Part shown: positions 9,998 through 33,338 of the stretch, one piece after another
How the letters are laid out: every line of letters begins with the position of its first letter
Position numbering within the stretch: position 1 is the first letter of the stretch
Assembly: GCF_001866075.3 (NCBI RefSeq)
Contig: NZ_CP063356.1
Location: forward strand, 1,478,164-1,542,163
From: Anaerobacillus isosaccharinicus
GTDB taxonomy: Bacteria > Bacillota > Bacilli > Bacillales > Anaerobacillaceae
DNA length: 64,000 nt
Reading direction: 5' to 3'
The notes under the pieces: generated by a model
Databases searched by the model: none
Told to the model about the DNA's origin: nothing
What the model saw: the letters and a program-made list of their open reading frames with translations, nothing else
Position numbers and translations under genes: made by a program

Positions 9998-10044
9998 TGT
10001 AACTTTGTTAAACTAAGGTTTTTAAAACTAATCATTGTGTAGAC

Positions 10045-10067
10045 GAGGGGGATTTTTGTTCCCCTTC
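10045..10067 (+). terminator. Hairpin between appA and appB (copy 2)
   Basis: GAGGGG (10045-10050) pairs with CCCCTTC (10061-10067) around a T-rich loop. It occupies the same place as the hairpin at 3659-3679 in copy 1, although the surrounding sequence is not conserved, which argues for a functional role in differential expression within the operon. Confidence 0.55.
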
Positions 10068-10101
10068 TTACATGCAAAATTTGAAGTAAAGGAGTTTGAA
10101 G

Positions 10102-11049: not shown

Positions 11050-11062
11050 GAGGTGGAGAACG

Positions 11063-11977
11063 TTGGCAAAACTAGAAGTTAAACTTCCAAACCAAAAAAC
11101 ACTTGATGTGCAATCATTGGGGGAAAGACGTTCCCTCTTATCCATTATCGTTGCAAAATTCTTACAAAATAAATTAGCTGTTATTGGTTTAGTAATGCTA
11201 GCAATCATTGTTTTTAGTGCTCTTTTAGCTCCTTGGATTGCACCACATGATCCCGATTTCCAAAACTTGAGAAACCGTTTAGCGGCTCCAAGTGCCGAGT
11301 TCCTTTTGGGTACGGATCATTTAGGAAGAGATATTTTTAGCCGTCTATTATTTGGTGGTCGAGTATCACTATTCGTTGGGTTTGTAGCCATGATTGGTGC
11401 TGTCACAATTGGTACAACAGTAGGTGCAGTTGCTGGTTATTTTGGTGGCTTAGTAGATTCAATTTTAATGCGATTAGTAGATATTATCATTTCATTCCCT
11501 AACATCTTTCTATTAATTACACTAGTTGCTGTACTTGAGCCGAGCATTGATAAACTTATTATGGTATTTGCTTTCTTAAGTTGGACAGGAACTGCTCGTT
11601 TAGTACGTGGTGAGTTCTTAACATTAAAGAAACGAGAGTTTGTATTAGCAGCGCGTACAATTGGGATGTCAAATACAAGAATTATTTTTGGACAAATTTT
11701 ACCGAGTGCATTTGGCCCTGTCATTGTAGCAGCGACACTTGCAGTAGGTGGCTTTATATTAGCTGAATCAGCGTTAAGTTTCTTAGGGTTAGGTGTACAA
11801 CCACCAACTTCGACTTGGGGTAACATGCTTACGTATTCCCAAAGTGTCACGATTTTTAGAACTGCTTGGTGGTATCCTACTTTCCCAGGTTTGATGATTT
11901 TACTTACTGTATTATCATTTAACTTTGTTGGTGACGGTTTACGTGATGCGTTAGATCCAAGAGTAATAGAAAAGTAA
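11063..11977 (+). CDS. appC: Oligopeptide ABC transporter permease AppC, copy 2
   Basis: 304-residue permease starting at TTG 11063, with AGGAGGTGG immediately upstream. The N-terminal tail differs from copy 1 ([16 protein letters not shown]) while the rest is almost the same, including [13 protein letters not shown] and the EAA loop. It is the last gene of operon 2. Confidence 0.92.
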
Positions 11978-12273: not shown

Positions 12274-12316
12274 AGTGATTTTAATCACATTGTGTGAAAG
12301 TGTATGAAAGTATGAT
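12274..12316 (+). promoter_or_regulatory. Fnr-type site and promoter of nrfHA copy 1
   Basis: AGTGATTTTAATCACA (12274-12289) matches the Crp/Fnr palindrome TGTGA-N6-TCACA with one mismatch. A -10 hexamer TATGAT lies at 12311-12316. With a start near 12323 the palindrome is centred at -41.5, the canonical class II activator position. This predicts oxygen-limitation-dependent activation by Fnr. No good -35 is present, as expected for an activated promoter. Confidence 0.75.
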
Positions 12317-12326
12317 ATAGACAGAA

Positions 12327-12342
12327 AGTGAGATACATCACA
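12327..12342 (+). promoter_or_regulatory. Second Fnr-type palindrome, just downstream of the predicted nrf-1 start
   Basis: AGTGAGATACATCACA, one mismatch from TGTGA-N6-TCACA. Its centre falls around +12 of the predicted transcript, a position where a bound protein would hinder rather than help transcription, or it may serve another promoter. Confidence 0.55.
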
Positions 12343-12447
12343 ACAGTAACTTTTTATACTACGTAATATGCCATTCGGTATTAAGCAGTTCCATTATAAA
12401 TGAATGCTTAATCTATAAAGCTCTAAAATATGAAAGGAGAGAAACCG

Positions 12448-12963
12448 ATGGGGGAAATGCTTAAGAAGCTAGATAAGAAGATTTTGTTATTTACGCTAAT
12501 CGGTGTGTTCGCAGGGATCGTACTTTTTGCAGGAACTGCAAGTACACTGAAAGCTACAGACACTGGTGAGTTTTGTTCTAGCTGCCACATTATGGGAACG
12601 GCTTATGAAACTTTTGCTAATTCTAACCATGCATCGTTAGCTTGTAATGACTGTCACTTGCCACAAGATAATGCAGTTAACAAGTTAGTTGAAAAAGCAA
12701 AAGCTGGCATGGGTCACATGTACATGAATACTTTGGGAGCAAGTAAAATTCCAGATGTACTTCATGCAACAGGTAACTCGCAAGAAATAATTCAACAGAA
12801 CTGCATTAGTTGTCATGAACCAAGCTTACAAAATGTATCACATGATGTTAAAGGAAGTTGTATCGATTGTCACCGCCAAGTTCCGCACAGTAAGGGTGAC
12901 TTTAGACCAGCTGAGTGGTTTGAACCAAGAGAATTCTTCTTTATGGAACCAGGTAGAAAATAA
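12448..12963 (+). CDS. nrfH: Cytochrome c nitrite reductase membrane subunit NrfH, copy 1
   Basis: Tetrahaem quinol dehydrogenase of the NapC/NirT/NrfH family, 171 residues, which passes electrons from menaquinol to NrfA. An ATG at 12430 is in frame, but AAAGGAG (12433-12439) is eight bases before the ATG at 12448, so that start is used. A single TM anchor (ILLFTLIGVFAGIVLFAG, residues 12-29) precedes four CxxCH haem motifs at residues 43, 66, 119 and 138. Its stop codon overlaps the region where nrfA begins, so the pair is coupled. Size and haem number are standard for the family. Confidence 0.93.
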   Translation: MGEMLKKLDKKILLFTLIGVFAGIVLFAGTASTLKATDTGEFCSSCHIMGTAYETFANSNHASLACNDCHLPQDNAVNKLVEKAKAGMGHMYMNTLGASKIPDVLHATGNSQEIIQQNCISCHEPSLQNVSHDVKGSCIDCHRQVPHSKGDFRPAEWFEPREFFFMEPGRK

Positions 12964-12980
12964 TGAAAGGAATGAAAAAA

Positions 12981-14462
12981 ATGGGGAGCAATCATAAAAA
13001 ACCATTATTATTGATGGTACTATCATTCTTGTTAATGCTTGCATTAGTAGGATGCGCAAGTTCACAAGCAAAAGAAAAAGAACCAATCAACACCGGACTT
13101 GATCCAGCAGAATGGAATAGCTACGCATTTAAGGATAAATACCCGTTACATTGGGAAAGTTTTATGAAAAACATGGTTAATGAAAAAGAGGTTAAGCCAA
13201 AGAATGATCCTTCAATTGAGCCATACTTACCGATTTTATGGAATGGTTTTGGATTTGCGGTAGAGTATAACTTAACTCGTGGGCACACATATGCATTTGA
13301 AGATCAAATGGTTGTAAGACGTATTACAGGTAACCCAAATGCAATATCTGCTTGTATGTCTTGTAAAACGACACTATTCCCTAAAATGATGGAAGAGTTT
13401 GGCGATCAAGCATTTAAGTTAAATTACCACGAAGAAGCAATGCCTTGGATTGATAAAATGACAGCACCTGATAAAGATCGTGAACTTGGTACTTATGGTC
13501 ACGCGTCTGTTGGATGTTCTACATGTCATGATCCTGTAACAATGGATTTACGTATTGCAATGCCACAATTAACACTTTCTTTAGAAAATATGGATCCTGA
13601 GATCATGCAAAGGCAATTAGGATTTACTTTAGATACAATTACACAACATGACATGCGTTCACTAGTTTGTGCTCAATGTCACGTAGAATACTATTTTGAC
13701 CCTGCAAACAATGCTCACACAACTTTCCCTTGGACTGAAGGTGTTCGTATGGAAAACATGTGGGATCACTATGAAGAAATTTGGGAAAAAGATGGCGAAT
13801 TCCAAGGAGAGTATGTTTCACGGTTAACGAACCAACCAATCTTAAAAGCACAACATCCTGAGTATGAATTATGGAGCTACGGCCCTCACCAAACTGTCTC
13901 ATGTGCTGATTGTCATATGCCTTACCAAAGAGTTGACGGTAAAAAGAAAATCTCTTCTCACCGTTGGGGATCTCCTATGAAGACAGCTGAAGAATCTTGC
14001 CGTACTTGCCACGCAGATAAGTCTGAAACTGAACTTAAAGATCGAGTAAAAGATATACAAACGGTTCACAAATCAGCATTACTGGAAGCGCAAGATATTG
14101 GTGCAACTGCAACTTATTATGTAAACAGAATGATTACTCGTCAAGTTGACGAAGCAAAGATTAAAGAAGCGCAATATTTACTACGCGAAGGACAATGGTT
14201 CTGGGATATTATTGCAGCTGAAAACTCTAAAGGTTTCCACAACCCACAAGGTGCTATGGAATCGTTTAGAAGATCTATCAAAGCTTCTTCTCAAGCAATT
14301 GAACTTGCTACGATTGAATTAATGAAACTTGGTGAAGATATTGATGAATTAAAGAAACAGATCGAAATTACTAAGCAAAACGTAGTAAACGAAACTGTTT
14401 CACACGAAAAACATCTTCAAGCAATCAACGAGTGGTTCCCGAACCACCGTGACAAACAATAA
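12981..14462 (+). CDS. nrfA: Ammonia-forming cytochrome c nitrite reductase NrfA, copy 1
   Basis: Catalytic subunit reducing nitrite to ammonium with six electrons (EC 1.7.2.2), acting outside the membrane. In-frame ATGs occur at 12963, 12972 and 12981; GAAAGGA (12965-12971) is nine bases from the last, which is used here (493 residues). A lipobox LVGC at residue 25 indicates a lipid anchor. The first haem site is CMSCK (residue 125), the NrfA-specific motif with catalytic lysine ligand; four CxxCH motifs follow at 179, 230, 308 and 340. CAQCHVEYYF and HRWGSP are NrfA family blocks around the active site and haem ligands. Confidence 0.95.
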   Translation: MGSNHKKPLLLMVLSFLLMLALVGCASSQAKEKEPINTGLDPAEWNSYAFKDKYPLHWESFMKNMVNEKEVKPKNDPSIEPYLPILWNGFGFAVEYNLTRGHTYAFEDQMVVRRITGNPNAISACMSCKTTLFPKMMEEFGDQAFKLNYHEEAMPWIDKMTAPDKDRELGTYGHASVGCSTCHDPVTMDLRIAMPQLTLSLENMDPEIMQRQLGFTLDTITQHDMRSLVCAQCHVEYYFDPANNAHTTFPWTEGVRMENMWDHYEEIWEKDGEFQGEYVSRLTNQPILKAQHPEYELWSYGPHQTVSCADCHMPYQRVDGKKKISSHRWGSPMKTAEESCRTCHADKSETELKDRVKDIQTVHKSALLEAQDIGATATYYVNRMITRQVDEAKIKEAQYLLREGQWFWDIIAAENSKGFHNPQGAMESFRRSIKASSQAIELATIELMKLGEDIDELKKQIEITKQNVVNETVSHEKHLQAINEWFPNHRDKQ

Positions 14463-14582: not shown

Positions 14583-14598
14583 TGTGACATTTTTCACA
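14583..14598 (+). promoter_or_regulatory. Perfect Fnr-type palindrome 1 before nrfHA copy 2
   Basis: TGTGACATTTTTCACA, exact match to TGTGA-N6-TCACA. It is the most upstream of four such sites in the 570-bp gap before nrfH copy 2. Confidence 0.75.
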
Positions 14599-14614
14599 CG
14601 TTTGACACACTTTT

Positions 14615-14630
14615 TGTGACGTAATTCACA
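14615..14630 (+). promoter_or_regulatory. Perfect Fnr-type palindrome 2 before nrfHA copy 2
   Basis: TGTGACGTAATTCACA, exact match; centre to centre 32 bp (three helical turns) from palindrome 1, so two dimers could bind the same DNA face. Confidence 0.75.
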
Positions 14631-14787
14631 GTTTCAAAATTGAATTGTGACAAGTTGTTTATACACAAATTGTTAAAAAATATGTAAACGTATGATTTTT
14701 GTACAAAAATCCTCGAAAATAAGGGATTTTATTGTAGAAAATTACACTATTTATTGGAATTTTAGTGTCTTTTTTAAGTGAATACGG

Positions 14788-14803
14788 TGTGACAAAGTTC
14801 ACA
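14788..14803 (+). promoter_or_regulatory. Perfect Fnr-type palindrome 3 before nrfHA copy 2
   Basis: TGTGACAAAGTTCACA, exact match, 33 bp upstream of palindrome 4 (centre to centre). Confidence 0.75.
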
Positions 14804-14820
14804 TTTTGTTCACCCTTTCA

Positions 14821-14836
14821 AGTGACATTTCTCACA
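14821..14836 (+). promoter_or_regulatory. Fnr-type palindrome 4 before nrfHA copy 2
   Basis: AGTGACATTTCTCACA, one mismatch. It is the site closest to nrfH. A -10-like TATAGG lies at 14850-14855 but does not give the ideal -41.5 spacing, so the start site is uncertain. Confidence 0.7.
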
Positions 14837-15034: not shown

Positions 15035-15538
15035 GTGAAAAACTTAGTAAGAAAAATCAATAATAAGCTCTTGTTGTTTACATTACTAGGAGTCTTCGTA
15101 GGAATTGTATTTTTCGCAGGTACTGAGGGAGCGATCAATGCAACAGATACACCAGAATTTTGTGCCAGCTGCCATGTATATGAACAGACAATTACAAACT
15201 TTGAAAATTCTAATCATGCTGCATTAAATTGTAACGATTGTCATGCACCAACAGATAGTAAGATTGCCAAATATACATTTAAAGGGATAAATGCTATAAG
15301 TCATGGTTACGCAACTACCTTTGGTGCAAGTTCGCTACCAGATGTCATCCATGCAACAGATAAGTCGAAGGAAGTTATTGAAAAAAACTGTATTAGCTGT
15401 CACGAACCGAGTCTACAAAATGTTGCACACGACTCAAAAGATAGTTGTATAAGTTGTCATCGTCAAGTACCACATAATAAGGGAGATTTTAAACCTTCAG
15501 AATGGCATGAGCCAGGCAATTTCCACTTTAACCGGTAA
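15035..15538 (+). CDS. nrfH: Cytochrome c nitrite reductase membrane subunit NrfH, copy 2
   Basis: 167-residue paralogue of the NrfH at 12448. The start is GTG; the overlapping ATG at 15033 runs straight into TGA, and a very strong AGGGGGGGAG ribosome site precedes the GTG. A TM anchor covers residues 11-29 and the CxxCH motifs fall at 43, 66, 119 and 138, exactly as in copy 1. The last residues (GNFHFNR) differ from copy 1. It feeds electrons from menaquinol to the NrfA encoded next. Confidence 0.93.
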   Translation: MKNLVRKINNKLLLFTLLGVFVGIVFFAGTEGAINATDTPEFCASCHVYEQTITNFENSNHAALNCNDCHAPTDSKIAKYTFKGINAISHGYATTFGASSLPDVIHATDKSKEVIEKNCISCHEPSLQNVAHDSKDSCISCHRQVPHNKGDFKPSEWHEPGNFHFNR

Positions 15539-15562
15539 TAAAAATTGAAAGGAATGAAAAAA

Positions 15563-17011
15563 ATGGGGAGTTTAAATAAAAAGTCGATTTTATTGGCTAT
15601 GTTTTCTATCTTTCTAACGCTAGCCCTAGTAGCTTGTAACAGCTCAAATGCAGAAGAAAGCCAACCGATGGATACGGGACTTGATCCAGATGAATATTTT
15701 AACACAGCATTTAAAGAGAAGTTTCCACTGCATTATGAAAGTTACCTAAAAAACATGGTAAATGAAAAAGAAGTGATTTCAAAAAGTGATCCTACTATAG
15801 AGCCTTATCAACCTGCTTTATGGAGCGGTTATGGATTTTCTCTTGAATATAACTTAACAAGAGGTCACACGTATGCATTAGAGGATCAAATTAAAGTTAA
15901 ACGTATTAACGATAATTCAATAGGTTCATGTATAACTTGTAAAGCAACAGTAGTACCACTTCTTTTAAGTGAAGAAGAGTTTGGTGATGAATTTTGGGGT
16001 GCTAACTTTAGAGGTGAAATTTTACCTCGTGTGAAAGAGTTAGCTGAAGGTGGAGAAAGTGAAGAATTAGGCGAATTAGGTCACATCTCCATTGGTTGTT
16101 CGGATTGTCATGACCCAGTAACGATGGATTTACGTGTTACTCGTCCTTCATTTACAAAAGCTATGGAGCGTAGTGGGGTAGATTTAACAAAAGCAACACA
16201 AAATGATATGCGTTCATACGTATGTGGACAATGTCACGTAGAGTACTATTTTGAGCCTGAAAAGAAAGAAGTAACATTTCCGTGGGATAAGGGCTTAAGA
16301 GTAGAAGATATGTATGAGTACTATGAAACAATTGCTATTGATCAAGGTTTCGATGCTGATTGGACACACCAAATTTCTGGAACGCCGTCTCTAAAATCAC
16401 AACATCCAGAATTTGAACTATCTAGCTACGGGACACATGGGAATGCGGGTGTTTCTTGTTCAGATTGTCATATGCCATATCAAAGAGTTGACGGTAAAAA
16501 GAAAATCTCATCTCACCGTTGGGGTTCACCTTTAAAAACAGTAGAAGAGTCTTGTCGCAGCTGTCATGCTGATAAGTCAGCAACATATTTAAAGGATCGT
16601 GTTGAAGATATTCAAGACCGACACGTAGAAGCATTATTAGAAGCCCAGGAATTAAATACAATTTCTCACTATTATGTAAATCGTATGATTACTGCTGGAG
16701 TACCGGAAGCAAAGATAAAAGAAGCTCAGCAACACGTTCGTAAAGCACAATGGTTCTGGGATATTATTGCTGCAGAAAACTCAAAAGGATTCCATAATCC
16801 AAATGCTTCTATTGACTCTTTTAGAACTTCATCTATTGAATCTCAAGCAGCTATTGTCATTGCTACAGAGGAACTTGTGAAACTTGGTGAAGATATTGAT
16901 GTATTGAAACAACAAATTGAAACTACAATGCAAAACATTGTTAATGAAGCGGACCATTTTGAAAAGCATAAACATGCAATAAACGAATGGTTCCCTGCAC
17001 AAAACAAATAA
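15563..17011 (+). CDS. nrfA: Ammonia-forming cytochrome c nitrite reductase NrfA, copy 2
   Basis: 482-residue paralogue of the first NrfA. The start region (AAAGGAATGAAAAAAATG) is conserved with copy 1; the third in-frame candidate, ATG 15563, is nine bases after AAAGGA and is preferred. Lipobox LVAC precedes Cys25. The catalytic haem motif is CITCK, followed by CSDCH, CGQCH, CSDCH and CRSCH. Divergence from copy 1 is clear in the central region (for example an insertion LLLSEEEFGDEFWGANF), so the two enzymes may differ in affinity or expression rather than being a recent duplication. Confidence 0.95.
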   Translation: MGSLNKKSILLAMFSIFLTLALVACNSSNAEESQPMDTGLDPDEYFNTAFKEKFPLHYESYLKNMVNEKEVISKSDPTIEPYQPALWSGYGFSLEYNLTRGHTYALEDQIKVKRINDNSIGSCITCKATVVPLLLSEEEFGDEFWGANFRGEILPRVKELAEGGESEELGELGHISIGCSDCHDPVTMDLRVTRPSFTKAMERSGVDLTKATQNDMRSYVCGQCHVEYYFEPEKKEVTFPWDKGLRVEDMYEYYETIAIDQGFDADWTHQISGTPSLKSQHPEFELSSYGTHGNAGVSCSDCHMPYQRVDGKKKISSHRWGSPLKTVEESCRSCHADKSATYLKDRVEDIQDRHVEALLEAQELNTISHYYVNRMITAGVPEAKIKEAQQHVRKAQWFWDIIAAENSKGFHNPNASIDSFRTSSIESQAAIVIATEELVKLGEDIDVLKQQIETTMQNIVNEADHFEKHKHAINEWFPAQNK

Positions 17012-17218: not shown

Positions 17219-17261
17219 TGTGATCTTTCTCACAGTTATGAAACCCCTTAACAATTAAAGT
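17219..17261 (+). promoter_or_regulatory. Fnr-type site and promoter of the ccm operon
   Basis: TGTGATCTTTCTCACA (17219-17234) is an exact TGTGA-N6-TCACA. A weak -10 (TAAAGT, 17256-17261) places the palindrome near -41.5 relative to a start at about 17268. This links cytochrome c maturation to the same regulator as the two nrf operons. Confidence 0.72.
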
Positions 17262-17305: not shown

Positions 17306-18310
17306 ATGAAAAAACTAGTTAGAGGCTTTGTATTGTTAGTAACGATCCTCTTATTACAACTAACAATTCTACCGCCAAATGAAGCTTTATCCAACAATCC
17401 AAATATATCATTAACTGAGTTAAATATTAAAGTAATGCCTGAATTTATTAATCCAGAAGATTGGGATTACAACAATCCCTCCCTATTAGTAGGCTATCAT
17501 GGAACAATTACCAACCACTCTGAAGCTCCTTACACAGGTGAAATTAAGATTGATGTACCTACTCACCTACCCGACTTTCAAGCAGGTTTTGTAGCACAGT
17601 TTTTAAATGAAGAAGACGCTGAACCAATTGAAGAAGATTATACAGTAAACGTTGAAGACGGGAGTATCACTTGGACACCGAAAAATCCTATAGCACCTAA
17701 TGAAAGCTACAACTTCGTTTTAGAATACTTCAGTGCTGCAATTGAGGGTGTTGTAGATCGAAGCTTCAAATTTGAGTTCATTCCAGAAGCAGATATAGAT
17801 AATGTGAACATTGCTGTATATGCACCATACAAAGCAGAAAACTTTACAATTGATAAAGAAGCTGATTTAAATTCTATGACGTTTGGGATCGATTTCCATA
17901 TGTTTGAACACAGTGACGTAAAACAAGGTGAACAGCTTGATCTTACTGTATCTTATACGAAAGAAGATATCGTTACAACAATGGAGGCATTAAATGATTT
18001 TAGTGCACCAGAAGATGAGGCTCATGCGGGTTTTAATCAGCAAGATACAGAAACACCACAACAACAAAGTAATGCAATACTAAGTGCTGAAAATATTATT
18101 ATGATTAGTTTATCTTTAATACTAATTGGGGCCCTTGCTTTTATTATTCTTCGTAAAAAGAAAGAAAATAATCAGTCTGTAAAAGTAAATAGCATAGCAC
18201 CAAAGAAAATCGTCAATAAAGAAGGGGAAATCAAAAAACTTAGAAAAATGTTAACAGATGGTTTGATTGATGAAAAAACATATAAAGAGAAACGCGCAAA
18301 GTTAGGATAA
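17306..18310 (+). CDS. Unrecognised exported membrane protein heading the ccm operon (SHOCT-like C-terminus)
   Basis: I do not recognise this 334-residue protein. It has a signal-peptide-like N-terminus (residues 5-28), an extracytoplasmic region of about 220 residues rich in beta-type sequence (possible Ig-like or cell-surface fold), a Gln-rich linker, one TM helix (about residues 265-285) and a short cytoplasmic tail. The final 30 residues (EGEIKKLRKMLTDGLIDEKT...) resemble a SHOCT domain, a small oligomerisation module. It has no CxxCH or conserved cysteines, so it is not a cytochrome. Position as first gene of the ccm operon, 16 bases before ccmE, suggests an accessory or scaffold role in haem delivery; that is inference. 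Confidence 0.75.
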   Translation: MKKLVRGFVLLVTILLLQLTILPPNEALSNNPNISLTELNIKVMPEFINPEDWDYNNPSLLVGYHGTITNHSEAPYTGEIKIDVPTHLPDFQAGFVAQFLNEEDAEPIEEDYTVNVEDGSITWTPKNPIAPNESYNFVLEYFSAAIEGVVDRSFKFEFIPEADIDNVNIAVYAPYKAENFTIDKEADLNSMTFGIDFHMFEHSDVKQGEQLDLTVSYTKEDIVTTMEALNDFSAPEDEAHAGFNQQDTETPQQQSNAILSAENIIMISLSLILIGALAFIILRKKKENNQSVKVNSIAPKKIVNKEGEIKKLRKMLTDGLIDEKTYKEKRAKLG

Positions 18311-18326
18311 TTGAGGAGGAAGCTAT

Positions 18327-18767
18327 ATGAAAAAGAATACAAAGGTTTTACTTGGAGGCTGTACGATCATTTTAACAATTTTAATCTTATTAATTGCAGC
18401 AACTCCAGGGGCAAGTGGAACGGAAATTCCTATTCAAGAAGTATTGGCAAATCCTGACAAGTATGAAGACCGTTATGTTACAACTGAAGGATTTTTAATT
18501 GAAGAATCAATTGAGTGGCGAGCAGATGAAATTGAATTATACTTTGATATTGTAGACAGTGACGGAAATGTACTCTCTGTATACCACCATGGTGTAAGAC
18601 CGGATAATTTCTCTGAAGGAGTAATTACTATTTTAGAAGGATATATTGTCCCTGGAGAACCATTTCAGGCAGAACGTGTAAAAACAAAGTGTCCATCAAA
18701 ATATGAAGGTGAAGACCCAAATGATTATGACCCAGAATTTCACAAAGAGTTATTAGATGATAAATAA
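18327..18767 (+). CDS. ccmE: Haem chaperone CcmE, Cys-type variant
   Basis: CcmE binds haem covalently outside the membrane and hands it to the CcmF lyase. This 146-residue protein has an N-terminal TM anchor, then an OB-fold-like domain with the recognisable stretch GVRPDNFSEGVITILEGYI (canonical CcmE: LPDLFREGQGIVAEG). At the place of the usual HxxxY haem-binding motif it has KCPSKY (C-x-x-x-Y), so cysteine replaces histidine as the haem ligand; this Cys-type CcmE is known from archaea and some sulfate reducers. The tail after it is short and acidic. Confidence 0.85.
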   Translation: MKKNTKVLLGGCTIILTILILLIAATPGASGTEIPIQEVLANPDKYEDRYVTTEGFLIEESIEWRADEIELYFDIVDSDGNVLSVYHHGVRPDNFSEGVITILEGYIVPGEPFQAERVKTKCPSKYEGEDPNDYDPEFHKELLDDK

Positions 18768-18803
18768 TTTCTTTAAAATTGAACTCAAAGAAGGTGGCAC
18801 ATC

Positions 18804-20783
18804 ATGCATTTGATAGGAAATTTATCAATTTATTTAGCGTTAGCTTTATCAATATATGCCTTTATCATTTTTATCCTAGGAATTTATAAACAAGATCAAA
18901 GATTAGTAGATAGTGGGAAAGCAGCGAGCTTAATCGTATTTATTATGGCATCTATCTCGATGTTAATTCTTTTTACTGCACTAGGTACGAGTCAACTGCA
19001 ATTTGAATATGTCTCAGCTTATACAAGTACAGACTTACCGATTTTATATAAATTAGCAGCTCTTTGGGCTGGTAATGCAGGCTCACTTCTTCTGTGGACA
19101 TTCTTTTTAACCATGTATACTGCAATGGTTGTTTACTCTAGAAAGATGAAAAATAATCCGCTAACGCCATATGTAGCGGCGATTATGCTAGCAAATACAA
19201 TTTTCTTCTATTTAATTTTAGGGTTTGTGGCAAAACCATTTGTGCTTTTAGATCAAGTACCAGTGGAAGGTCGTGGTTTAAATCCGATGCTACAAGATCC
19301 TGGGATGCTGTTACACCCAGTAACATTATATTTAGGTTATGTAGGTTTAGCAGTACCGTTTGCTTTTGCAATCGCAGCTTTAATTGTTAAAAATATTGAT
19401 GCATTCTGGTTACGTATGACTCGTCGTTGGACGATCATTGCCTGGATGTTTCTAACCTTAGGAAACGTAATCGGCGGTTACTGGGCTTATACGGAGCTTG
19501 GTTGGGGCGGATACTGGGCATGGGATCCAGTAGAAAACGCATCATTTATGCCGTGGTTAACCGTGACGGCTTATCTCCACTCAGTCATGATCCAAGAAAG
19601 AAAAGGGATGTTGAAGATTTGGAATATCTCTTTAATTATCCTCTCGTACGCTTTAACGTTATTCGGAACATTCTTGGTACGAAGTGGGGTATTAACTTCA
19701 GTGCATGCGTTCGGAGACTCTAATCTAGGTGCTTATTTCTTAATATTCATGGCACTAGCAGTGATTTTCTCGTTATATATTTTAATGAGTCGTTATCACT
19801 TATTAAAGAAAGATAGTGGCCAATTTGAATCATTTTTCTCAAAGGAAAGTAGTTTCTTAGTAAATAACTTAATCCTAGTTGGTGCTACGTTTGCAGTATT
19901 CTGGGGTACAATCTTTCCGTTAGTTTCAGAGGCGGTTAGAGGAACGAAGGTAACCGTAGGTATTCCGTTCTTTAATACGGTAATGTCACCAATTTTACTA
20001 GCTTTAATTTTCGTAATGGCTGTATGTCCACTAATTGCGTGGCAACGTTCAACAGCTAAAAATTTAAGAGATAATTTCTTAATTCCTGCTATTTTAAGTT
20101 TGGTAGTTGTAGGTTTATTAGCTGGATTAGGGATGAGAGCAGCTTATCCAATTATTTCTTTCGGTATTATTTCGTTTATGTTATTGACGCATATTCTTGA
20201 ATTCTATCGCGGAGTAAAAGCAAGAAGGAAAGTAACAAAAGAAGCTTATCCAGTTGCTCTTTACTGGTTAATGATTAAAAACCGCCGCAGATATGGTGGT
20301 TATATCGTCCACTTTGGTATAGCGCTGATGGCAATCGGTATTGTTGGTTCCAATTTTGATACTGAAACGATGAAAACTGTTCCTAAAGGTGGAACGATTG
20401 AAATTCAAGATTATGTTTTAACTTATGAATACCTAGCACAACGTTCTGAGGGAATTAATGATATTGTCTTTGCTAATATCCGTGTTACAAAAAATGGTAA
20501 AGAACTGGGTTATGTCCAACCAGAACGAATTTTCTATGGTAGTTGGGAAGAACCATCTACTGAAGTAGCGGTTCTAGGAAGTTTACGTGAAGATTTATAT
20601 GTAGTATTAAGTGCTTGGGAAAAAGACGAGCGTGCAACATTCGTAGTAAAAGTAAATCCGCTTGTTAAGTGGGTATGGATTGGTAGTTTTGTACTAGTAA
20701 TCGGCTCCGTTTTCGCAATTTGGACTGGTAAGTATGGGAACACTACACCGCGGTACACTGGTCCGCAAAGGAAGGTGTCCTAA
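18804..20783 (+). CDS. ccmF: Cytochrome c haem lyase subunit CcmF
   Basis: 659-residue polytopic membrane protein of the HHP (haem handling protein) superfamily that ligates haem to apocytochrome CxxCH (and perhaps CxxCK) motifs. The tryptophan-rich WWD-type signature GWGGYWAWDPVENASFMPW is clear around residues 230-250, with about 14-15 TM helices and a large extracytoplasmic domain near the C-terminus (KTVPKGGTIEIQDYVLTYEYLAQ). Histidines flanking the WWD region are present. No separate NrfE is encoded nearby, so this CcmF is the obvious candidate to serve both NrfH and NrfA. Confidence 0.95.
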   Translation: MHLIGNLSIYLALALSIYAFIIFILGIYKQDQRLVDSGKAASLIVFIMASISMLILFTALGTSQLQFEYVSAYTSTDLPILYKLAALWAGNAGSLLLWTFFLTMYTAMVVYSRKMKNNPLTPYVAAIMLANTIFFYLILGFVAKPFVLLDQVPVEGRGLNPMLQDPGMLLHPVTLYLGYVGLAVPFAFAIAALIVKNIDAFWLRMTRRWTIIAWMFLTLGNVIGGYWAYTELGWGGYWAWDPVENASFMPWLTVTAYLHSVMIQERKGMLKIWNISLIILSYALTLFGTFLVRSGVLTSVHAFGDSNLGAYFLIFMALAVIFSLYILMSRYHLLKKDSGQFESFFSKESSFLVNNLILVGATFAVFWGTIFPLVSEAVRGTKVTVGIPFFNTVMSPILLALIFVMAVCPLIAWQRSTAKNLRDNFLIPAILSLVVVGLLAGLGMRAAYPIISFGIISFMLLTHILEFYRGVKARRKVTKEAYPVALYWLMIKNRRRYGGYIVHFGIALMAIGIVGSNFDTETMKTVPKGGTIEIQDYVLTYEYLAQRSEGINDIVFANIRVTKNGKELGYVQPERIFYGSWEEPSTEVAVLGSLREDLYVVLSAWEKDERATFVVKVNPLVKWVWIGSFVLVIGSVFAIWTGKYGNTTPRYTGPQRKVS

Positions 20784-21278
20784 GTGAAAAAAGTAATAGC
20801 TGCTTTGACACTATTATTACTAATTTCAGTGATCCCCGCATATGCCGGGGATCAATATGACTTTAAATCTGCAGAGTTTAAAGAAGTCGCTTCGCAGTTT
20901 ATGTGTATGTGCGGTTGCGGACAAGATCATTTTGAATGTAATATGCAAGGCTGTGGTTTAAACGACTCGTTTAAGCAAGAAATGAAAGAAATGATGGATG
21001 ATGGTTTAACAAAAGATGAAATTAAAGATTATTATATCGGCATGTATGGTGAAGAAATTTTAACAGCTCCTGAGAAAAAAGGCTTTAGCTTAACAGCTTG
21101 GATTTTGCCGTTCGCTGTTCTTGGAGTTGCAGGAGTTGGGATTGTTTTTGTAATTCGTAAGTGGGTAGCAGGATATAAAGAAGAACCGATTTTATTTGAA
21201 GAACTTACAGAAGAACAAGAATTAGAAGATGAAATTGTAAAGTCAATGATCGATGAAGAGCGAAAAAAGTATTTTTAG
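20784..21278 (+). CDS. ccmH: Cytochrome c biogenesis protein CcmH (CGCG-type)
   Basis: 164-residue CcmH/CycL/NrfF-like protein that keeps apocytochrome cysteines reduced for haem ligation. GTG start directly after the ccmF stop, with GGAAGGTG upstream, so strongly coupled. It has a signal peptide, a cysteine-rich segment FMCMCGCGQDHFECNMQGCG (in place of the proteobacterial LRCxxCQ), a helix, and a C-terminal TM helix followed by an acidic cytoplasmic tail. The CGCG form with extra cysteines occurs in deeper-branching System I organisms. Confidence 0.87.
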   Translation: MKKVIAALTLLLLISVIPAYAGDQYDFKSAEFKEVASQFMCMCGCGQDHFECNMQGCGLNDSFKQEMKEMMDDGLTKDEIKDYYIGMYGEEILTAPEKKGFSLTAWILPFAVLGVAGVGIVFVIRKWVAGYKEEPILFEELTEEQELEDEIVKSMIDEERKKYF

Positions 21279-21285
21279 GATGTGA

Positions 21286-21645
21286 ATGGTTATGGCGATC
21301 GTTTTAAGTATAATAATCGTAGCATTCTCTCTTTACTTAGTAGTTACGCCGTTGTTAAGAAAAGACAATATCCAACTACCTGTAGAGATCAAGGATGATA
21401 CGGAAGATATTTCAATCAAGAATGTTTATGCTACGTTAAATGAGCTAGAGATGGATTACCATATGCAAAAGCTTTCAGAAGAAGATTATCAAAAATTAAA
21501 AGTCCAGTATGAGCGTTTAGCTGCTGAATTACTTGAAAAAGACAAAAAAGCTAGTAAGACAGATACTGATAGTGCTGTCAAAGATATTGAAGCAGAAATT
21601 GAGGAAGAACTAGCAAAGCTGAGAAAAGAGAGAGGGGAAAAGTAA
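21286..21645 (+). CDS. Small CcmI-like membrane protein
   Basis: 119 residues: one N-terminal TM helix (residues 1-20) and a coiled-coil cytoplasmic part. The segment VYATLNELEMDYHMQKLSEEDYQKLKVQYERL resembles the N-terminal domain of CcmI, the apocytochrome chaperone; the tetratricopeptide domain of full CcmI is missing. An in-frame ATG at 21292 is an alternative start. Context inside the ccm operon supports a role in apocytochrome handling. Confidence 0.75.
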   Translation: MVMAIVLSIIIVAFSLYLVVTPLLRKDNIQLPVEIKDDTEDISIKNVYATLNELEMDYHMQKLSEEDYQKLKVQYERLAAELLEKDKKASKTDTDSAVKDIEAEIEEELAKLRKERGEK

Positions 21646-21646
21646 C

Positions 21647-22042
21647 ATGGTTGGACTAATTTTAGCTTCAGCTGTTACAAGGTCCACTCCTTCTTTTCAT
21701 AACCCCGGTCATTTACGAATGTGGTACACTTCACCACTTCGAAGCTTTGATCCACATTTAGTTACCGCAATTTTGGCTCTTATTGTAATTGCAGGAGTAG
21801 GCTGGTTTATCTACTTCCAAATGAAGCACCGTATTTCTGAAGAAAAATTGGAAGTCAATCCAGATGAAAAAGTATTTCAGGAATTAGTTGTAAAGCAAAA
21901 GGTAATCTTAAATAAATTGCTAGAGTTAGAAGAGATGCATAAAGCTGGTACCATTGCAGATGAAGAATTTGAAAAGAAGGCATCTCTTTATCGTGAACAT
22001 CTCGTAAAAGTTAAAATGGAATTACAAAGGTTCATGGACTAA
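21647..22042 (+). CDS. Unrecognised small membrane protein with coiled coil, ccm operon
   Basis: 131 residues, starting one base after the previous stop. The N-terminal 40 residues are moderately hydrophobic and His/Pro-containing (PSFHNPGHLRMWY), then a clear TM helix (VTAILALIVIAGVGWFIYF) and a charged helix with a SHOCT/CcmI-like pattern (LLELEEMHKAGTIADEEFEKKASLY). It looks like a second CcmI-type helper. No family name can be given with confidence. Confidence 0.72.
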   Translation: MVGLILASAVTRSTPSFHNPGHLRMWYTSPLRSFDPHLVTAILALIVIAGVGWFIYFQMKHRISEEKLEVNPDEKVFQELVVKQKVILNKLLELEEMHKAGTIADEEFEKKASLYREHLVKVKMELQRFMD

Positions 22043-22056
22043 AGGAGAGGGCCCCT

Positions 22057-22758
22057 ATGATAGAAACAAAAGGACTCATAAAAACCATCGGCGATAAAAT
22101 GATCCTTCGTGGAATTAACCTTTCGATAAAAAAAGGTGAATCTGTAGCAATATTGGGACCTAACGGAGCTGGAAAAAGTACGATTTTAAAAATCATCGCA
22201 GGATTAATTAAATCAACAAGTGGAGAAGTCATTATTAATGGAAAGAATTTAAAAGATGACCCCTATGAAATAAAGAGAAAAATTGGCTTCCTTGCCCATA
22301 ATAGTTTTTTATATGACCACTTAACACCGTTAGAAAACCTAAAGTTTTTTGGTAAGCTATACGGTGTTAAAGATTTAGAAACAAAAGCAAAAGCACTAGT
22401 TGATGAGGTGGGATTAAGTTTTTTCATTCATGATCCAGTGCGTTCGTTCTCACGAGGGATGTTGCAACGAATTGCTATAGCGAGAGCGATTATTCATGAT
22501 CCAGAAATTTTGCTTTTTGATGAGCCTCATACGGGTTTAGATCAACATGCTATTAAATTATTAAATGATGTAATCTTAAAAATGAAAGCAAAAGGCAGTA
22601 CGGTAATAATGGTTACTCATGACTTTCATCAAGCAGTTGAAACGTGTGATCGAGTGATTATTTTCAAAAACGGAAAGCTTGTCGAAGATATGAGCAATGT
22701 TTCAAACAACCTTGAAGTTGTTACGGCAAAATATGCAGAACAGGTGACTAGCTTATGA
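22057..22758 (+). CDS. ccmA: Haem exporter ATP-binding protein CcmA
   Basis: 233-residue ABC ATPase that releases holo-CcmE from the CcmC complex. Walker A GPNGAGKST, signature FSRGMLQRIAIARA, Walker B ILLFDEPHTGLD and His switch MVTHDFHQ are all present. AAAGGAG precedes the ATG by a normal distance; the 3' end overlaps ccmB by four bases (ATGA). Confidence 0.93.
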   Translation: MIETKGLIKTIGDKMILRGINLSIKKGESVAILGPNGAGKSTILKIIAGLIKSTSGEVIINGKNLKDDPYEIKRKIGFLAHNSFLYDHLTPLENLKFFGKLYGVKDLETKAKALVDEVGLSFFIHDPVRSFSRGMLQRIAIARAIIHDPEILLFDEPHTGLDQHAIKLLNDVILKMKAKGSTVIMVTHDFHQAVETCDRVIIFKNGKLVEDMSNVSNNLEVVTAKYAEQVTSL

Positions 22759-23438
22759 ACAATTTATTCAGAGCAGCCTTCATCATCGCTGGAAAAGATC
22801 TATATTCAGAATGGAAGACAAAACAAGTTGTTACAACAATGCTCATTTTTTCAGGATTAGTAATTGTTACGTTTTCATTCGCGTTTGATCCATCTAACAA
22901 TGCAGTTCGGGCAATTATCCCTGGCTTAATTTGGGTCATTACGATTTTTTCAGCAATCTTAGGTTTAAACCGCTCATTCCTTTCAGAAACGAAGAACGAT
23001 AACCTTTACGGAATGATTGTTTCACCTACAGATCCATCAAGTATCTATTTAGGAAAAGTTATCGGTAATTTTATCTTTGTGCTTATTGTACAATTAATTT
23101 CAATTCCGGTTTTATTCTTATTATTTGATTTTCGATTTTTTGGACATCTGCCATTATTTATTATCGTTGTTGTATTAGGTACATTTGGGTTTATTAGTGT
23201 CGGAACCTTTTTAGCGGGATTAGCAGCAAACTCAAAAAGTAGTGAGATGCTCTTACCAATTTTGTTGTTCCCAATCGTAAGTCCAATCATTATCGCTGCC
23301 GTTCAAGCAACAAAAATACTTTTGATCGACTTAGAACAAATTTCAAGTGCGATTTCTTGGATGCAATTAATGGGAGCATATAACTTAATCTTTTTTGTTT
23401 TATGTTTTATTCTTTTTGAATATGTATTGGAGGTGTAA
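22755..23438 (+). CDS. ccmB: Haem exporter membrane subunit CcmB
   Basis: 227-residue permease with six predicted TM helices; the GTFGFISVGTFLAGLAANSKSSEMLLPILLFPI stretch is characteristic of CcmB. It overlaps ccmA by four bases and is three bases from ccmC, so CcmA, CcmB and CcmC are made together as the CcmABCD complex. Confidence 0.92.
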   Translation: MNNLFRAAFIIAGKDLYSEWKTKQVVTTMLIFSGLVIVTFSFAFDPSNNAVRAIIPGLIWVITIFSAILGLNRSFLSETKNDNLYGMIVSPTDPSSIYLGKVIGNFIFVLIVQLISIPVLFLLFDFRFFGHLPLFIIVVVLGTFGFISVGTFLAGLAANSKSSEMLLPILLFPIVSPIIIAAVQATKILLIDLEQISSAISWMQLMGAYNLIFFVLCFILFEYVLEV

Positions 23439-23441
23439 TTA

Positions 23442-24182
23442 ATGAAGCTTATTAATGACGATTTAACAGCTATACCAGAAGAAACTTTGCTTCATAGAAT
23501 TTTATTTTACCTTAGCATACCAATGATGTTAACAGCTCTCTATTTGGCTTTTATATACACACCTGTTGAACGAGTTATGGGTGTTGTACAAAAAATATTT
23601 TATTTCCACGTTGCGTCTGCGTGGGTTGCGTTCTTTGCTTTCTTTATTGTAGCAGTATTTAGCATTATGTATTTGGTGAAAAGGAAACGCATATATGATG
23701 TTATCGCAGGAATATCAGCAGAAATTGGTGTTGTATACACGGCAATCGTTTTAACAACAGGTCCTATTTGGGGGCGTTCTGCTTGGAATGCATGGTGGTC
23801 TTGGGAGCCGAGATTAACAACGACTTTAATTTTATTCTTTATGTATATTGCTTACATTATGATCCGTCATATGGATGTAGCATGGGAAAAGAAAGCACGT
23901 TTTGCTTCGGTATTTGGGATTATTTCTTTTATTAATGTACCGATTGTGTTCATGTCTATTCGTTGGTGGAATTCGACACTTCACCCAGTTGTATTGGGAG
24001 AAGGTGGAGTAAATGAGTCAGGCGGTGGTTTAGAGCCATCGATGTTATTTGCATTAATCTTTACCGTATTTACGATGACTATTTTATATTTTGTACTATT
24101 ACAAAAAGGTGTTTATATTGAACGACTTAAAATACAAGCTGAACGTCTAAAAGAAAAATTCCAAGAAAAATTAGCTGGATAG
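23442..24182 (+). CDS. ccmC: Haem delivery protein CcmC
   Basis: 246-residue HHP-family membrane protein that attaches haem to CcmE. Six TM helices; the WWD signature reads WGRSAWNAWWSWEPRLTTTL, and the two flanking histidines (FYFHVASAW and a later STLHPVVL) are in place. GGAGGTG lies ahead of the start. Confidence 0.95.
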   Translation: MKLINDDLTAIPEETLLHRILFYLSIPMMLTALYLAFIYTPVERVMGVVQKIFYFHVASAWVAFFAFFIVAVFSIMYLVKRKRIYDVIAGISAEIGVVYTAIVLTTGPIWGRSAWNAWWSWEPRLTTTLILFFMYIAYIMIRHMDVAWEKKARFASVFGIISFINVPIVFMSIRWWNSTLHPVVLGEGGVNESGGGLEPSMLFALIFTVFTMTILYFVLLQKGVYIERLKIQAERLKEKFQEKLAG

Positions 24183-24195
24183 GGAGGATTTTAAA

Positions 24196-24324
24196 ATGAC
24201 TTATTTATGGGCAGCGTATTCAATTATTTGGTTAATGATCGCCGGTTATGTAGTAGTATTAGGGAAACGCCAAAAAGCTATCAGTAAGCAACTTTTATTT
24301 TTACAAGAGTTAGAAAAAAAATGA
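24196..24324 (+). CDS. ccmD: Small haem exporter subunit CcmD
   Basis: 42-residue peptide beginning MTYLWAAYSIIWLMIAGYVV and ending in a basic helix (QKAISKQLLFLQELEKK). One TM helix with aromatic/Ala-Tyr start and a charged coiled tail is the CcmD layout, and CcmD normally follows ccmC. GGGAGG stands eight bases before the ATG. CcmD stabilises the CcmABC-CcmE complex. Confidence 0.85.
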   Translation: MTYLWAAYSIIWLMIAGYVVVLGKRQKAISKQLLFLQELEKK

Positions 24325-24355
24325 TCGATAAACCCGTTATTAAGGGGAGTTATGT

Positions 24356-24871
24356 ATGAATAAACAAAAAATAATTCAAATGGTTGTATTAGTTTTTGTC
24401 ATTGGTATTTTAATAACAATGGTATTAGGATTACGTTCTCAAGGTCAAGCTTATGGAATAGGGGATGAAGCCTATGACTTTGAACTACAAGATCTTGATG
24501 GCAACACCCGCCGGTTGTCAGACTATCGAGGAAAAGTAGTTATGTTAAATTTCTTTGCTACATGGTGTACTGCCTGTGTGGCAGAAGCTCCTGAGCTTGA
24601 GCGGTTTAATGATGAGTTTAAGGACGAAGTTCAACTTTTCGTTGTCGTAAAAGGGGAAACACAAAATACTGTCAGAAGATATGTAGAAGAAAGACAGTCA
24701 AAAAAAACATATGTCTTTGATTTTACAAACAGCGTTTCGAGAAAATTTGGCGTAATCGGTCAACCTGAAACAATTGTTATAAATGAAGAAGGTATCATTG
24801 TTGACCATTTCATTGGTGGTTTATCTAGAGACTTTTTAGGTGTCGTTTTGAATGAACTAAAGGGGAGATAG
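24356..24871 (+). CDS. ccmG: Membrane-anchored thioredoxin-like protein CcmG/ResA
   Basis: 171 residues: N-terminal TM anchor (residues 9-25) and an extracytoplasmic thioredoxin fold of the TlpA/ResA/CcmG type with active site WCTAC (residues about 67-71) and the cis-Pro loop IGQPETIVI. It reduces the haem-binding cysteines of apocytochromes. Last gene of the ccm operon, followed by a terminator. ResA of System II is indistinguishable by motif alone; context favours CcmG. Confidence 0.9.
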   Translation: MNKQKIIQMVVLVFVIGILITMVLGLRSQGQAYGIGDEAYDFELQDLDGNTRRLSDYRGKVVMLNFFATWCTACVAEAPELERFNDEFKDEVQLFVVVKGETQNTVRRYVEERQSKKTYVFDFTNSVSRKFGVIGQPETIVINEEGIIVDHFIGGLSRDFLGVVLNELKGR

Positions 24872-24925: not shown

Positions 24926-26740
24926 TCGGAAATTAAATTTCCGCTTCAGCTCTAGTCTTTCGACTTGGGCTTTTTATTGTTTCACCCCTAATTAAAGGGT
25001 ACGAACAAATTTTCCTCTTGACAAATTCAGATCGCCCCAACAATCGAGTTGAAGACATTAAAAAACTCGTATTGGGGGAATTTTTATGCTAAAAAACGTC
25101 CGTTCTCATGAATCCTATCTGTCTTTTGTTGTTGAGCAATTAGAAGAACTCTATAAGGATAAAACATTTTTAAAAACCTTTTACTCTAGACCAATAATTT
25201 GGTGTTCCTTGATTGACCTAACCGATGCCGCCATGTTGCTTAGACACCGTTATTCCTCTAATCCAAGAGGAAGAAAACCGCGTAATCCTTGTGATATGTT
25301 GAGAAGTTTAATGCTAATGCATTATCACAATGTAACGAGTGTTGATCAATGGGTTTACCATTTAAAAACAACACCGATTTATGCTGTCCTTAGTGGATTT
25401 TCTCCAAGCAACGTTCCTGGAGTCGGAACGTTTTACGACTTTTTCAATCGTCTATGGCTTGCTTCAACTCCACATTTATCAAAAAGAAATAAAAGAAAGT
25501 TAGCAAAACCTCGAAAGAAAGGAAAAAAGAATCAGAAACTAGATCCTAAAAACCCAAAGATTGTAGAAAAGCTAGTTAAACGCACTTTGAAAAATAAACA
25601 TCAAAACTATATACCGAAGGCTCATGATCAGCTTCAAATAATCTTTCAGTCTTTGTTTGTCAATAAATCAGCAGAAGCAGGATTATTAGGAAACACAAAA
25701 TCTCTAAGCATTCTAGGTGATGGTTCTCCAGTTCTGACCGGTGGTAAACCTTACGGTAAGTTTCTTTGTGAATGTCGTAAACAAGGGAACTGGAAGTGCC
25801 AATGTAAGCGTCAATTCTCAGACCCTGATGCTGATTATGGTTGGGATAGTTCTAGAGAAAAGTACTATTATGGTAGAAGTCTTTTCATGGTATCTGCTTC
25901 TGATAGTCCTTATGACTTACCTATTTATCCAAGGCTCTACCGAGCCAGTAAACACGATTCTGTTTTGTTTATAAGCGCATTTAGCGAACTCCAACAATGG
26001 TATTCTGATTGGAAAATTGGTGAAGTCATTTTAGATTCAGCCTTAGATGCAACCCCTATCTATGAAATGTTAGAACACTATGATGTTTCAGCCATCATTG
26101 ACCTTAATCCAAGACGTTCTAAACAATTTCAGCACAAACAAATGGATATAAACCTTAAAGGGGTTCCAATTTGCCCAATCGGTCGAGAGATGATCCATTG
26201 GGGACTAAATCAGAAAACCTACCGCCGCAAATGGCGTTGTCCAGCCGTTTGTGGGAAGTGGGAATGTCCAAATCCATGTTCCGATTCAAAATATGGTCGA
26301 ACATTTTATACAGCGACGAAGGATAATCCTCGTCTTTTTCCTCGCGTCAAGCGAGGTAGTAAGGAATGGCGAAAACGCTATTCTTTACGAACTGGAGTCG
26401 AGCGTTGTATCAAACGTCAAAAAGTGGATTATCGTTTAGAAGATTCAAGAGGACGAAGTTCTCGGCATTGGAATATTCGTACATATATCATCGGCATGTG
26501 CCAACATGCCGATGCGTGGATAAAGGAAGCAAAAAAGAATAACTTTGTGGCTGCGAACCCAATTATTCAATCTCTTTTGTCCTTATAAACCCATCATAAA
26601 GAACAATTTTCAAAAAATCCACAACATGTGGTTTATTTGTCATGCATTCTTTTGAAAATGGCTTTGAAAATTCCATTTTTCCTTCTTAAATCCAGCTGAT
26701 ACACTCCAGGAGACCGCAAATTAATCATTTAATTTCCGAG
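24926..26740. mobile_element. Insertion sequence with DDE transposase, about 1.8 kb
   Basis: The ends carry inverted repeats: TCGGAAATTAAAT at 24926-24938 and its complement ATTTAATTTCCGA at 26727-26739. GTCTC flanks both ends (24921-24925 and 26740-26744; AGTCTCT is shared if the last repeat bases are included), consistent with a 5-7 bp target duplication. The inside holds one transposase gene and nothing else. The element separates the ccm operon from tadA and is likely intact. Confidence 0.8.
25086..26588 (+). CDS. Transposase (DDE, IS4-superfamily type)
   Basis: 500 residues. N-terminal helical domain like other DUF772-type transposases (RGRKPRNPCDMLRSLMLMH), a Lys-rich linker near residues 135-170, then the catalytic region: Asp in ILGDGSPV, Asp in EVILDSALDATP, and Glu in LRTGVERCIKRQK (candidate DDE triad). 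A cysteine cluster (CECRKQGNWKCQC) lies within the catalytic part and another (CPAVCGKWECPNPC) precedes the last Glu, both compatible with zinc binding. No frameshift or internal stop. I cannot assign the IS family with certainty. Confidence 0.85.
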   Translation: MLKNVRSHESYLSFVVEQLEELYKDKTFLKTFYSRPIIWCSLIDLTDAAMLLRHRYSSNPRGRKPRNPCDMLRSLMLMHYHNVTSVDQWVYHLKTTPIYAVLSGFSPSNVPGVGTFYDFFNRLWLASTPHLSKRNKRKLAKPRKKGKKNQKLDPKNPKIVEKLVKRTLKNKHQNYIPKAHDQLQIIFQSLFVNKSAEAGLLGNTKSLSILGDGSPVLTGGKPYGKFLCECRKQGNWKCQCKRQFSDPDADYGWDSSREKYYYGRSLFMVSASDSPYDLPIYPRLYRASKHDSVLFISAFSELQQWYSDWKIGEVILDSALDATPIYEMLEHYDVSAIIDLNPRRSKQFQHKQMDINLKGVPICPIGREMIHWGLNQKTYRRKWRCPAVCGKWECPNPCSDSKYGRTFYTATKDNPRLFPRVKRGSKEWRKRYSLRTGVERCIKRQKVDYRLEDSRGRSSRHWNIRTYIIGMCQHADAWIKEAKKNNFVAANPIIQSLLSL

Positions 26741-31504: not shown

Positions 31505-33060
<1,556 letters not shown>

Positions 33061-33173
33061 TGGAGTTAAAACTCTAGTCGATGCTTTTCTTAGGGAAAGT
33101 ACGCTTGTGCTTGTTTGTTCAGTTTTGAAGGAATGATCCTTCAACTATATAATTTGCTGATCTGAATTTAGAT

Positions 33174-33281: not shown

Positions 33282-33305
33282 TTTTGAGAGAATGATCTCT
33301 CAGTA

Positions 33306-33338
33306 TAATGTAGAATTCAAAATGTAGAATGTAGAATT
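33306..33338. repeat. ATTCTACATT-type repeat, single arm in rRNA spacer
   Basis: AATGTAGAATTCAAAATG followed by a second TAGAATGTAGAATT run. Same motif as the palindromic elements at 49527 and 51931, but only one arm is present. Confidence 0.55.

Follow-up and report, generated by a model that had tools for sequence, protein, structure and literature searches.

Two unnamed membrane protein families in a System I* (Ccm) operon of Anaerobacillus isosaccharinicus, one of them retained beside nrfHA in reduced loci

The genome of Anaerobacillus isosaccharinicus, a single contig of 5.23 Mb, carries a cytochrome c maturation operon of the System I* kind (Ccm proteins with a Cys-type CcmE), a kind already known, in which two conserved, unnamed membrane proteins, ORF1 and ORF6, are the new element. 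In relatives whose nrf-linked copy of the operon has shrunk, orf1 is the last biogenesis gene retained. Our tentative reading, which we regard as close to evenly balanced, is that the operon serves NrfHA and that ORF1 and ORF6 replace the TPR part of CcmI/NrfG, with ORF1 handling NrfA.

Eleven genes on the plus strand occupy positions 17306-24871 of the 64-kb stretch of DNA analyzed here (the window), in the order orf1-ccmE-F-H-I(N-terminal part)-orf6-A-B-C-D-G. The initial annotation had described a one-strand ccm operon with short spacings, and every reading frame lay where it had been placed, with intergenic gaps from orf1 to ccmG of -4 to 36 bases. The gene order is repeated in relatives, so the operon is not due to chance. 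Profiles upheld the names given to ccmE, of the Cys type (CPSKYE; 18327-18767; PF03100, 66 bits, over the Pfam cut-off, and alignment); the haem lyase gene ccmF (18804-20783; CcmF_C PF16327, 193 bits, PF01578, 136 bits, and tree); ccmH, of the multi-cysteine class (MCMCGCGQDHFECNMQGCG; 20784-21278; PF03918, 79 bits, and alignment); ccmA (22057-22758; TIGR01189, 140.6 bits, cut-off 131.6); ccmB (22755-23438; PF03379, 100 bits, over the Pfam cut-off); and ccmC (23442-24182; Cytochrom_C_asm PF01578, 90 bits, and TIGR01191, 129 bits, cut-off 186). Two names held in part. The ccmI gene (21286-21645; alignment) probably encodes the N-terminal domain only, 119 aa with a TM segment and cytoplasmic hairpin and no TPR, at a gene position conserved in relatives, and its TIGR03142 score of 28.0 bits is just under the cut-off of 29.3; the 42-aa ccmD-like protein (24196-24324) is named from place and conservation and matched no Pfam family. 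The last gene (24356-24871) encodes a ccmG/ResA-like membrane-anchored thioredoxin (PF00578, 91.7 bits), nearest to ResA/DsbE-type thioredoxins and scoring 108.8 bits with the NCBIfam ResA model against a cut-off of 170. For CcmE, CcmF, CcmB and CcmC, the NCBIfam matches are under cut-off and the Pfam matches over it. System II proteins are not the better match for either CcmF (455 bits with the System I model, 38 with the System II CcsB model) or CcmC (129 and 39 bits). Within the operon there is neither a TPR protein nor, by Pfam and NCBIfam, a ResB or CcsA-type protein; the best match to TPR_CcmH_CycH in the genome reaches 26.2 bits (cut-off 42) and is located outside the operon. That model also gives weak matches to TPR genes in all 24 CcmE genomes of the Bacillales and in B. 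subtilis. With a single CcmE and a single CcmF, the genome has one such operon. General roles of the Ccm proteins beyond those in the reviews cited below are taken as common background.

System I has been added to System II in these bacteria and not substituted for it. The resBC genes, which the initial annotation proposed to seek elsewhere in the genome, were found at a separate locus, resABC-resD-resE, in which ResB is identified by PF05140 and the other genes are presumably resA, resC, resD and resE, names read by eye from the sequences. Of 24 Bacillales genomes with CcmE, 23 contain ResB, as do 20/20 in the subset with completeness of 90% or more and contamination of 5% or less; together with the resABCDE locus of the window genome, these counts rule out System I as a replacement of System II. 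CcmF is single in 23 of the 24 and present twice in one (G219). The Cys motif of CcmE was found in 24/24 and 72/72 sequences of two Bacillales sets and in 70/71 of a phylum set; the CcmE of locus L328 has no readable motif. System I* with a CPSKY-type CcmE has been described, with Firmicutes listed as carriers (PMC3601427), and it has in common with the window the CPSKYE CcmE, CcmABCF, an optional CcmH and the Firmicutes carriers; the window differs in a CcmI cut to its N-terminal domain, and the available portion of that source names no ORF1- or ORF6-like subunits. A ccm cluster adjoining nrfAH in B. azotoformans (ccmEFHABC) was published in 2012, the same linkage in a Bacillus; the report, in its accessible part, gives six/eight Ccm proteins and leaves extra genes, regulation and reduced forms undiscussed (PMC3475470). 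The composition that the initial annotation called unusual for a Bacillaceae genome is thus in print as regards System I* and the ccm-nrfAH linkage; the new part is ORF1 and ORF6, of which we found no mention in a literature search whose scope lay outside most subscription journals.

Two nrfHA pairs lie upstream of the operon, also on the plus strand. They comprise nrfH1 (12430-12963; PF03264, 66.9 bits), for a NapC/NirT-type multihaem cytochrome, with nrfA1 (12963-14462; PF02335, 330 bits), for a pentahaem, ammonia-forming nitrite reductase with the haem 1 motif CMSCK, and nrfH2 (15035-15538; PF03264, 62.6 bits) with nrfA2 (15545-17011; PF02335, 385 bits; haem 1 motif CITCK), the first haem of both NrfA being of the CXXCK type. 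The sequence TGTGA-N6-TCACA, which we take to be the FNR/CRP-type box of Bacillus, occurs with at most one mismatch seven times in the 64-kb window (100 dinucleotide shuffles: mean 2.18, maximum 6). All seven plus-strand boxes are upstream of nrfH1 (12274 and 12327, each with one mismatch; 12274-12342), nrfH2 (14583, 14615 and 14788, perfect, and 14821, one mismatch; 14583-14836) or orf1 (the perfect box TGTGATCTTTCTCACA, 17219-17234, with similar spacing in relatives). Among the matches listed, the 350 bases preceding the called start of orf1 contained a box at 16/16 nrf-linked loci, 15 of them perfect, and at 6/63 nrf-unlinked loci, every one mismatched; expectation for this comparison came from mononucleotide shuffles. 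A first Bacillales set, which has several genomes in common with the second, gave 19/21 nrf-linked and 0/2 unlinked loci with a box at orf1. Boxes were found in 8/24 nrfH upstream stretches and in 0/2 of those upstream of a ccmE without orf1 (G016, G120). The orf1 gene heads a presumed anaerobic unit.

The initial annotation had read the operon as System I in a Gram-positive version that brings accessory proteins of its own and had picked the first gene, orf1 (17306-18310), as the best candidate for an undescribed component. Both views gain support, as ORF1 is outside Pfam and NCBIfam and recurs together with ORF6 beside ccm in relatives, contrary to the refuting outcome named there, absence of the two unknown genes from the surroundings of ccm in all related genomes. 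Neither window protein matched a Pfam or NCBIfam family over cut-off; nor did 19 ORF1 relatives match Pfam over cut-off among the matches listed (best 25 of 41 families), or 17 ORF6 relatives. The structure model of ORF1 has a signal helix, an exported beta domain (residues 34-218), a TM helix (261-286) and a short helical hairpin (305-333); the SHOCT-like label given earlier to the tail is sub-threshold, with SHOCT at 14.2 bits in ORF1 and 18.8 in ORF6 against a Pfam cut-off of 27. ORF1 and ORF6 are homologous at the profile level. The orf6 gene of the window (21647-22042) encodes a short form with a FHNPGH...W..SP......H motif, a TM segment and a CcmI-like hairpin, without the exported beta domain of its long relatives (~330 aa). 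For the models of ORF1 and long ORF6 (fold comparison of the latter: VIA), the best fold match is ribophorin I, a subunit of the oligosaccharyltransferase, with aminopeptidase N-terminal domains a close second, so that the outer domain as modelled has a ribophorin I/M1-aminopeptidase-N-terminal fold. At the sequence level, the ribophorin I family PF04597 gave one match in six genomes (E 0.26, 11.6 bits, cut-off 25), inside the long orf6 of G168, and was absent from the Pfam results of ORF1 and ORF6 relatives among the matches listed. Searches of PDB sequences and, with ORF1, of plasmids returned no match, and comparison of CcmI-N with ORF1 gave nothing significant.

ORF6 length follows nrf linkage in the Bacillales. 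It is short where nrfA is in the stretch (18/18 and 9/9 in two sets) and long where it is not (2/2 and 60/60), the second set comprising the matches listed. Loss of the outer domain as a universal mark of nrf linkage was rejected, with 5 of 26 phylum-level ORF6 short and no nrfA in the stretch, some of the five being cut by a contig end.

ORF1 itself tracks CcmI-bearing operons and, inside the Bacillales, NrfA. Among 249 Bacillales genomes, CcmE is found in 24, NrfA in 22 and strong ORF1 in the identical 22 (weak matches in G094 and G029, E 0.0026 and 0.0088, left out), which supports the tie to multihaem nitrite reductases proposed at the outset; G016 and G120 have CcmE and neither ORF1 nor NrfA. 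These cases are not independent, as they come from nine genera with a shared gene cluster. At the phylum level, in hand-compiled lists that leave out ORF1 matches with E >1e-20 and NrfA matches with E >1e-50, strong ORF1 is present in 26 of 299 genomes, with CcmE in 24/26 and full-length NrfA in just 16/26, so ORF1 is not an NrfA-only protein everywhere; CcmE is found in 32/55 NrfA genomes. ORF1 is encoded at 25 of 72 phylum loci (at L283 split by a stop and counted as present), where CcmI-N accompanies it in every case and ORF6 in 21; CcmI-N occurs without ORF1 at three (L274, L291, L309). None of orf1, ccmH, ccmI or orf6 is present at 42/72 loci, yet CcmE is Cys type in 70/71, and the suggested co-occurrence of ORF1 with Cys-type CcmE, as a general partner, accordingly fails. 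In Bacillota, the counts instead make ORF1 a marker of those System I* operons that include CcmI. Its gene lies ahead of ccmE in Bacillales as well as in clostridial-type Bacillota, with ccmE directly 3' of orf1 at 22/23, 72/79 (among the matches listed) and 23/25 loci of three sets.

A natural deletion series carries the argument further. The named-locus set covers 80 of 124 relatives retrieved with a single peptide pattern and cannot be read as a census of proportions; 79 have ORF1, the other (L139) being a relative of the query without a called ORF1 at a contig edge. The set includes 53 stand-alone full operons with long ORF6 and 8 nrf-linked full operons with short ORF6. In the nrf-linked locus L170, orf1, ccmF, H, I, orf6 and G remain; in L185 and L188, orf1-ccmF-H-I-nrfHA; and in L180, L182, L187 and L189, as in L075 of the other set, orf1-nrfHA, orf1 alone being left of the operon. 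Each of these eight reduced loci has, going by shared record or assembly names, a second, full stand-alone ccm operon in the same, Neobacillus-type genome (L170 with L135, L185 with L120, L188 with L160, L180 with L158, L182 with L153, L187 with L150, L189 with L132, and L075 with L061 in G168). The haem-export genes and ccmE are lost in 8/8 reduced loci and orf1 in 0/8. Conversely, five stand-alone operons among the matches listed are without A-D (L113, L117, L137, L145, L178), and for L113 (G219) and L117 the same genome has an nrf-linked operon carrying A-D (L067 and L177). The series fits duplicated lyase-side genes, including ORF1, with one common exporter; it tells little on ORF6. Separately, ccmH is missing from L113, L123, L136 and L148.

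Retention of orf1 by nrfHA after loss of the other ccm genes suggests that ORF1 faces the client and not the haem supply. From family membership, CcmABCD and CcmE would load haem, which CcmF, CcmH and CcmI-N would then attach in the manner of known System I*. ORF1 and ORF6, as homologous single-TM lyase-side proteins, would stand in for the absent TPR part of CcmI/NrfG. ORF1 would hold apo-NrfA near CcmF while all five haems, the CXXCK haem included, are attached; ORF6 would dock through its CcmI-like tail, probably acting at the lyase side, and may handle haem at its membrane-level H...W...H site. Since no TPR protein exceeds the cut-off, and since this fold adjoins the catalytic subunit in a different machine, a client adaptor is the most economical role.

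Another possibility is that the nrf-linked operon is simply a System I* under anaerobic control, lacking any CXXCK-specific part, and ORF1 a general apocytochrome chaperone, as the single CcmE and CcmF, hence one operon, of the window genome and the occurrence of ORF1 in stand-alone operons and in genomes without full-length NrfA would allow. We consider this unlikely, because nrf-linked orf1 outlasts the rest of its ccm operon and because stand-alone and nrf-linked copies are distinct. In an ORF1 tree of 57 sequences, with many Neobacillus rows left out, stand-alone genes form one clade (100/99) apart from nrf-linked ones. The orf1-only loci group (100/98), with L185 and L188 (95/86), inside the nrf-linked clade (100/98), and L170 lies elsewhere within it; the f17/f25 genomes join Mesobacillus-type nrf-linked genes (97/94), and Anaerobacillus joins weakly (82/67). 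A CcmF tree (80 rows, quick method, midpoint root, CcmF <800 aa and >600 bits only) is partly in conflict: Anaerobacillus and the nrf-linked f17/f25 genomes join stand-alone Neobacillus-type operons there (99), whereas ORF1 sorts more by nrf linkage. ORF1-bearing Bacillales form a group in that tree (SH-aLRT 100), adjoined by ORF1-bearing sequences of other Bacillota, and G016 lies inside it without orf1, orf6 or NrfA, which fits joint loss. CcmH alignment also sets the nrf-linked operons apart, with Cys-poor CcmH in every one outside Anaerobacillus and 0/8 intact stand-alone operons, although CcmH of L077, a remnant without nrf, is Cys-poor too.

Somewhat more doubtful still is a purely structural role, with ORF1 and ORF6 capping haem-handling membrane proteins and never touching the client, orf1 retention then reflecting shared regulation. 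Each is a single-TM protein with a short tail; ORF1 and the long form of ORF6 also carry a beta domain that is exported, and the His/Trp/His motif lies at the membrane in 109/111 ORF6 sequences scanned, in sets that overlap (the long ORF6 of L078, outside the 111, has no H/W motif). CcsAB has a beta cap over its WWD site, as given in the accessible text of a 2025 review (PMC12285233). Against caps, the orf1-nrfHA loci keep orf1 with no CcmF or CcmC within the ~20 kb fetched.

E. coli NrfEFG supplies dedicated CcmF/CcmH/CcmI-type helpers beside nrfA (PMC12285233, PMC3601427, each as far as available), and L185 and L188 come nearest to it. NrfEFG includes a TPR protein, whereas the window has none and has ORF1 instead; it is a lyase-only set, whereas the window carries a single complete ccm operon. 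An NrfE-like extra CcmF besides a general Ccm set is not in the window genome and is the arrangement of L185 and L188. The available part of the 2025 review calls CXXCK recognition by NrfEFG unclear and has NrfHA complexes served by System II (PMC12285233), which does not fit the linkage at the window; System II (ResBC/CcsBA, NrfI) also attaches haem outside the membrane, and lies in the same genome at a separate locus. Ribophorin I/Ost1 resembles ORF1 and long ORF6 in spanning the membrane once and in the fold of its outer beta domain, and differs in having two outer beta domains in a single chain and another chemistry, with no sequence match over cut-off. Ost1 has been proposed, in the portion of the report at hand, to keep the glycosylated peptide off the catalytic site (PMC7226087).

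A more specific version, possible if rather unlikely, is that in the Bacillota haem lyase a ribophorin-I-like ORF1/ORF6 pair replaces the TPR chaperone, the Nrf version of ORF1 being NrfA/CXXCK-specific and able to act in trans alongside a general Ccm system, and ORF6 binding haem via H-x7-W-x2-SP-x5-8-H. If true, two membrane machines that are unrelated but both modify exported polypeptides would use one fold to hold their clients, and two unnamed Bacillota operon families would gain a testable role. The Bacillales linkage points to System I* for NrfHA, and trimming of the nrf-linked copy to one helper in some Neobacillus-type genomes makes the CXXCK question reducible to a single gene.

Seven phylum-level ORF1 matches, strong or partial, have other surroundings: six are away from ccm (L331-L334, L336, L338), and L330 is beside ccmH. 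Homologues in two genomes (L331, L333) adjoin genes that we take to be FeoA/FeoB-like, names read by eye from the sequences, as are the Opp/Dpp gene names. Such neighbours would suit an ORF1 unrelated to cytochromes as such, an iron- or haem-supply membrane protein often travelling with ccm, a reading made highly improbable by CcmE in 24/26 phylum-level ORF1 genomes and by ccmE directly after orf1 in most loci.

One conserved Cys in the CcmH alignment marks a Cys-poor CcmH class that is found in nrf-linked operons. Its members lie in the relatives' loci L056 (8393-8881), L057 (8486-8962), L058 (5077-5559), and L062-L077, and in some Anaerobacillus the protein is present as a second ccmH copy; the alignment revealed none in the window. 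A ccm remnant in L077 (genome G016) adjoins a further multihaem cytochrome, and ccmA, ccmB, orf1, and orf6 were not found in it. In L303, L304, L308, and L310, a different Cys-CcmE cluster with gene order A-B-C-E-F adjoins nrfHA, and searches of these clusters for ORF1, ORF6, CcmH, and CcmI found none. ORF1 homologues also occur in clostridial-type genomes (L331, 11054-12031; L333, 3710-4711), beside genes that we take, by eye, to be FeoA/FeoB-like.

The window genome carries a third nrfA (G000:C1:475535-476716), away from the window's nrfHA pairs. Immediately 5' of nrfH1 stand two similar tandem operons (68-5687 and 6302-11977) for ABC transporters of the peptide/nickel type, with two ATPases, a binding protein, and two permeases, all as named by eye. 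G+C climbs to ~0.45-0.52 at 32000-38000, perhaps reflecting candidate ribosomal RNA genes; despite this rise, ARAGORN detected no tRNA in the entire 64-kb window. Just 3' of ccmG is a transposase-like gene (25086-26588), which matches DUF772 above the cut-off and DDE_Tnp_1 slightly below it.
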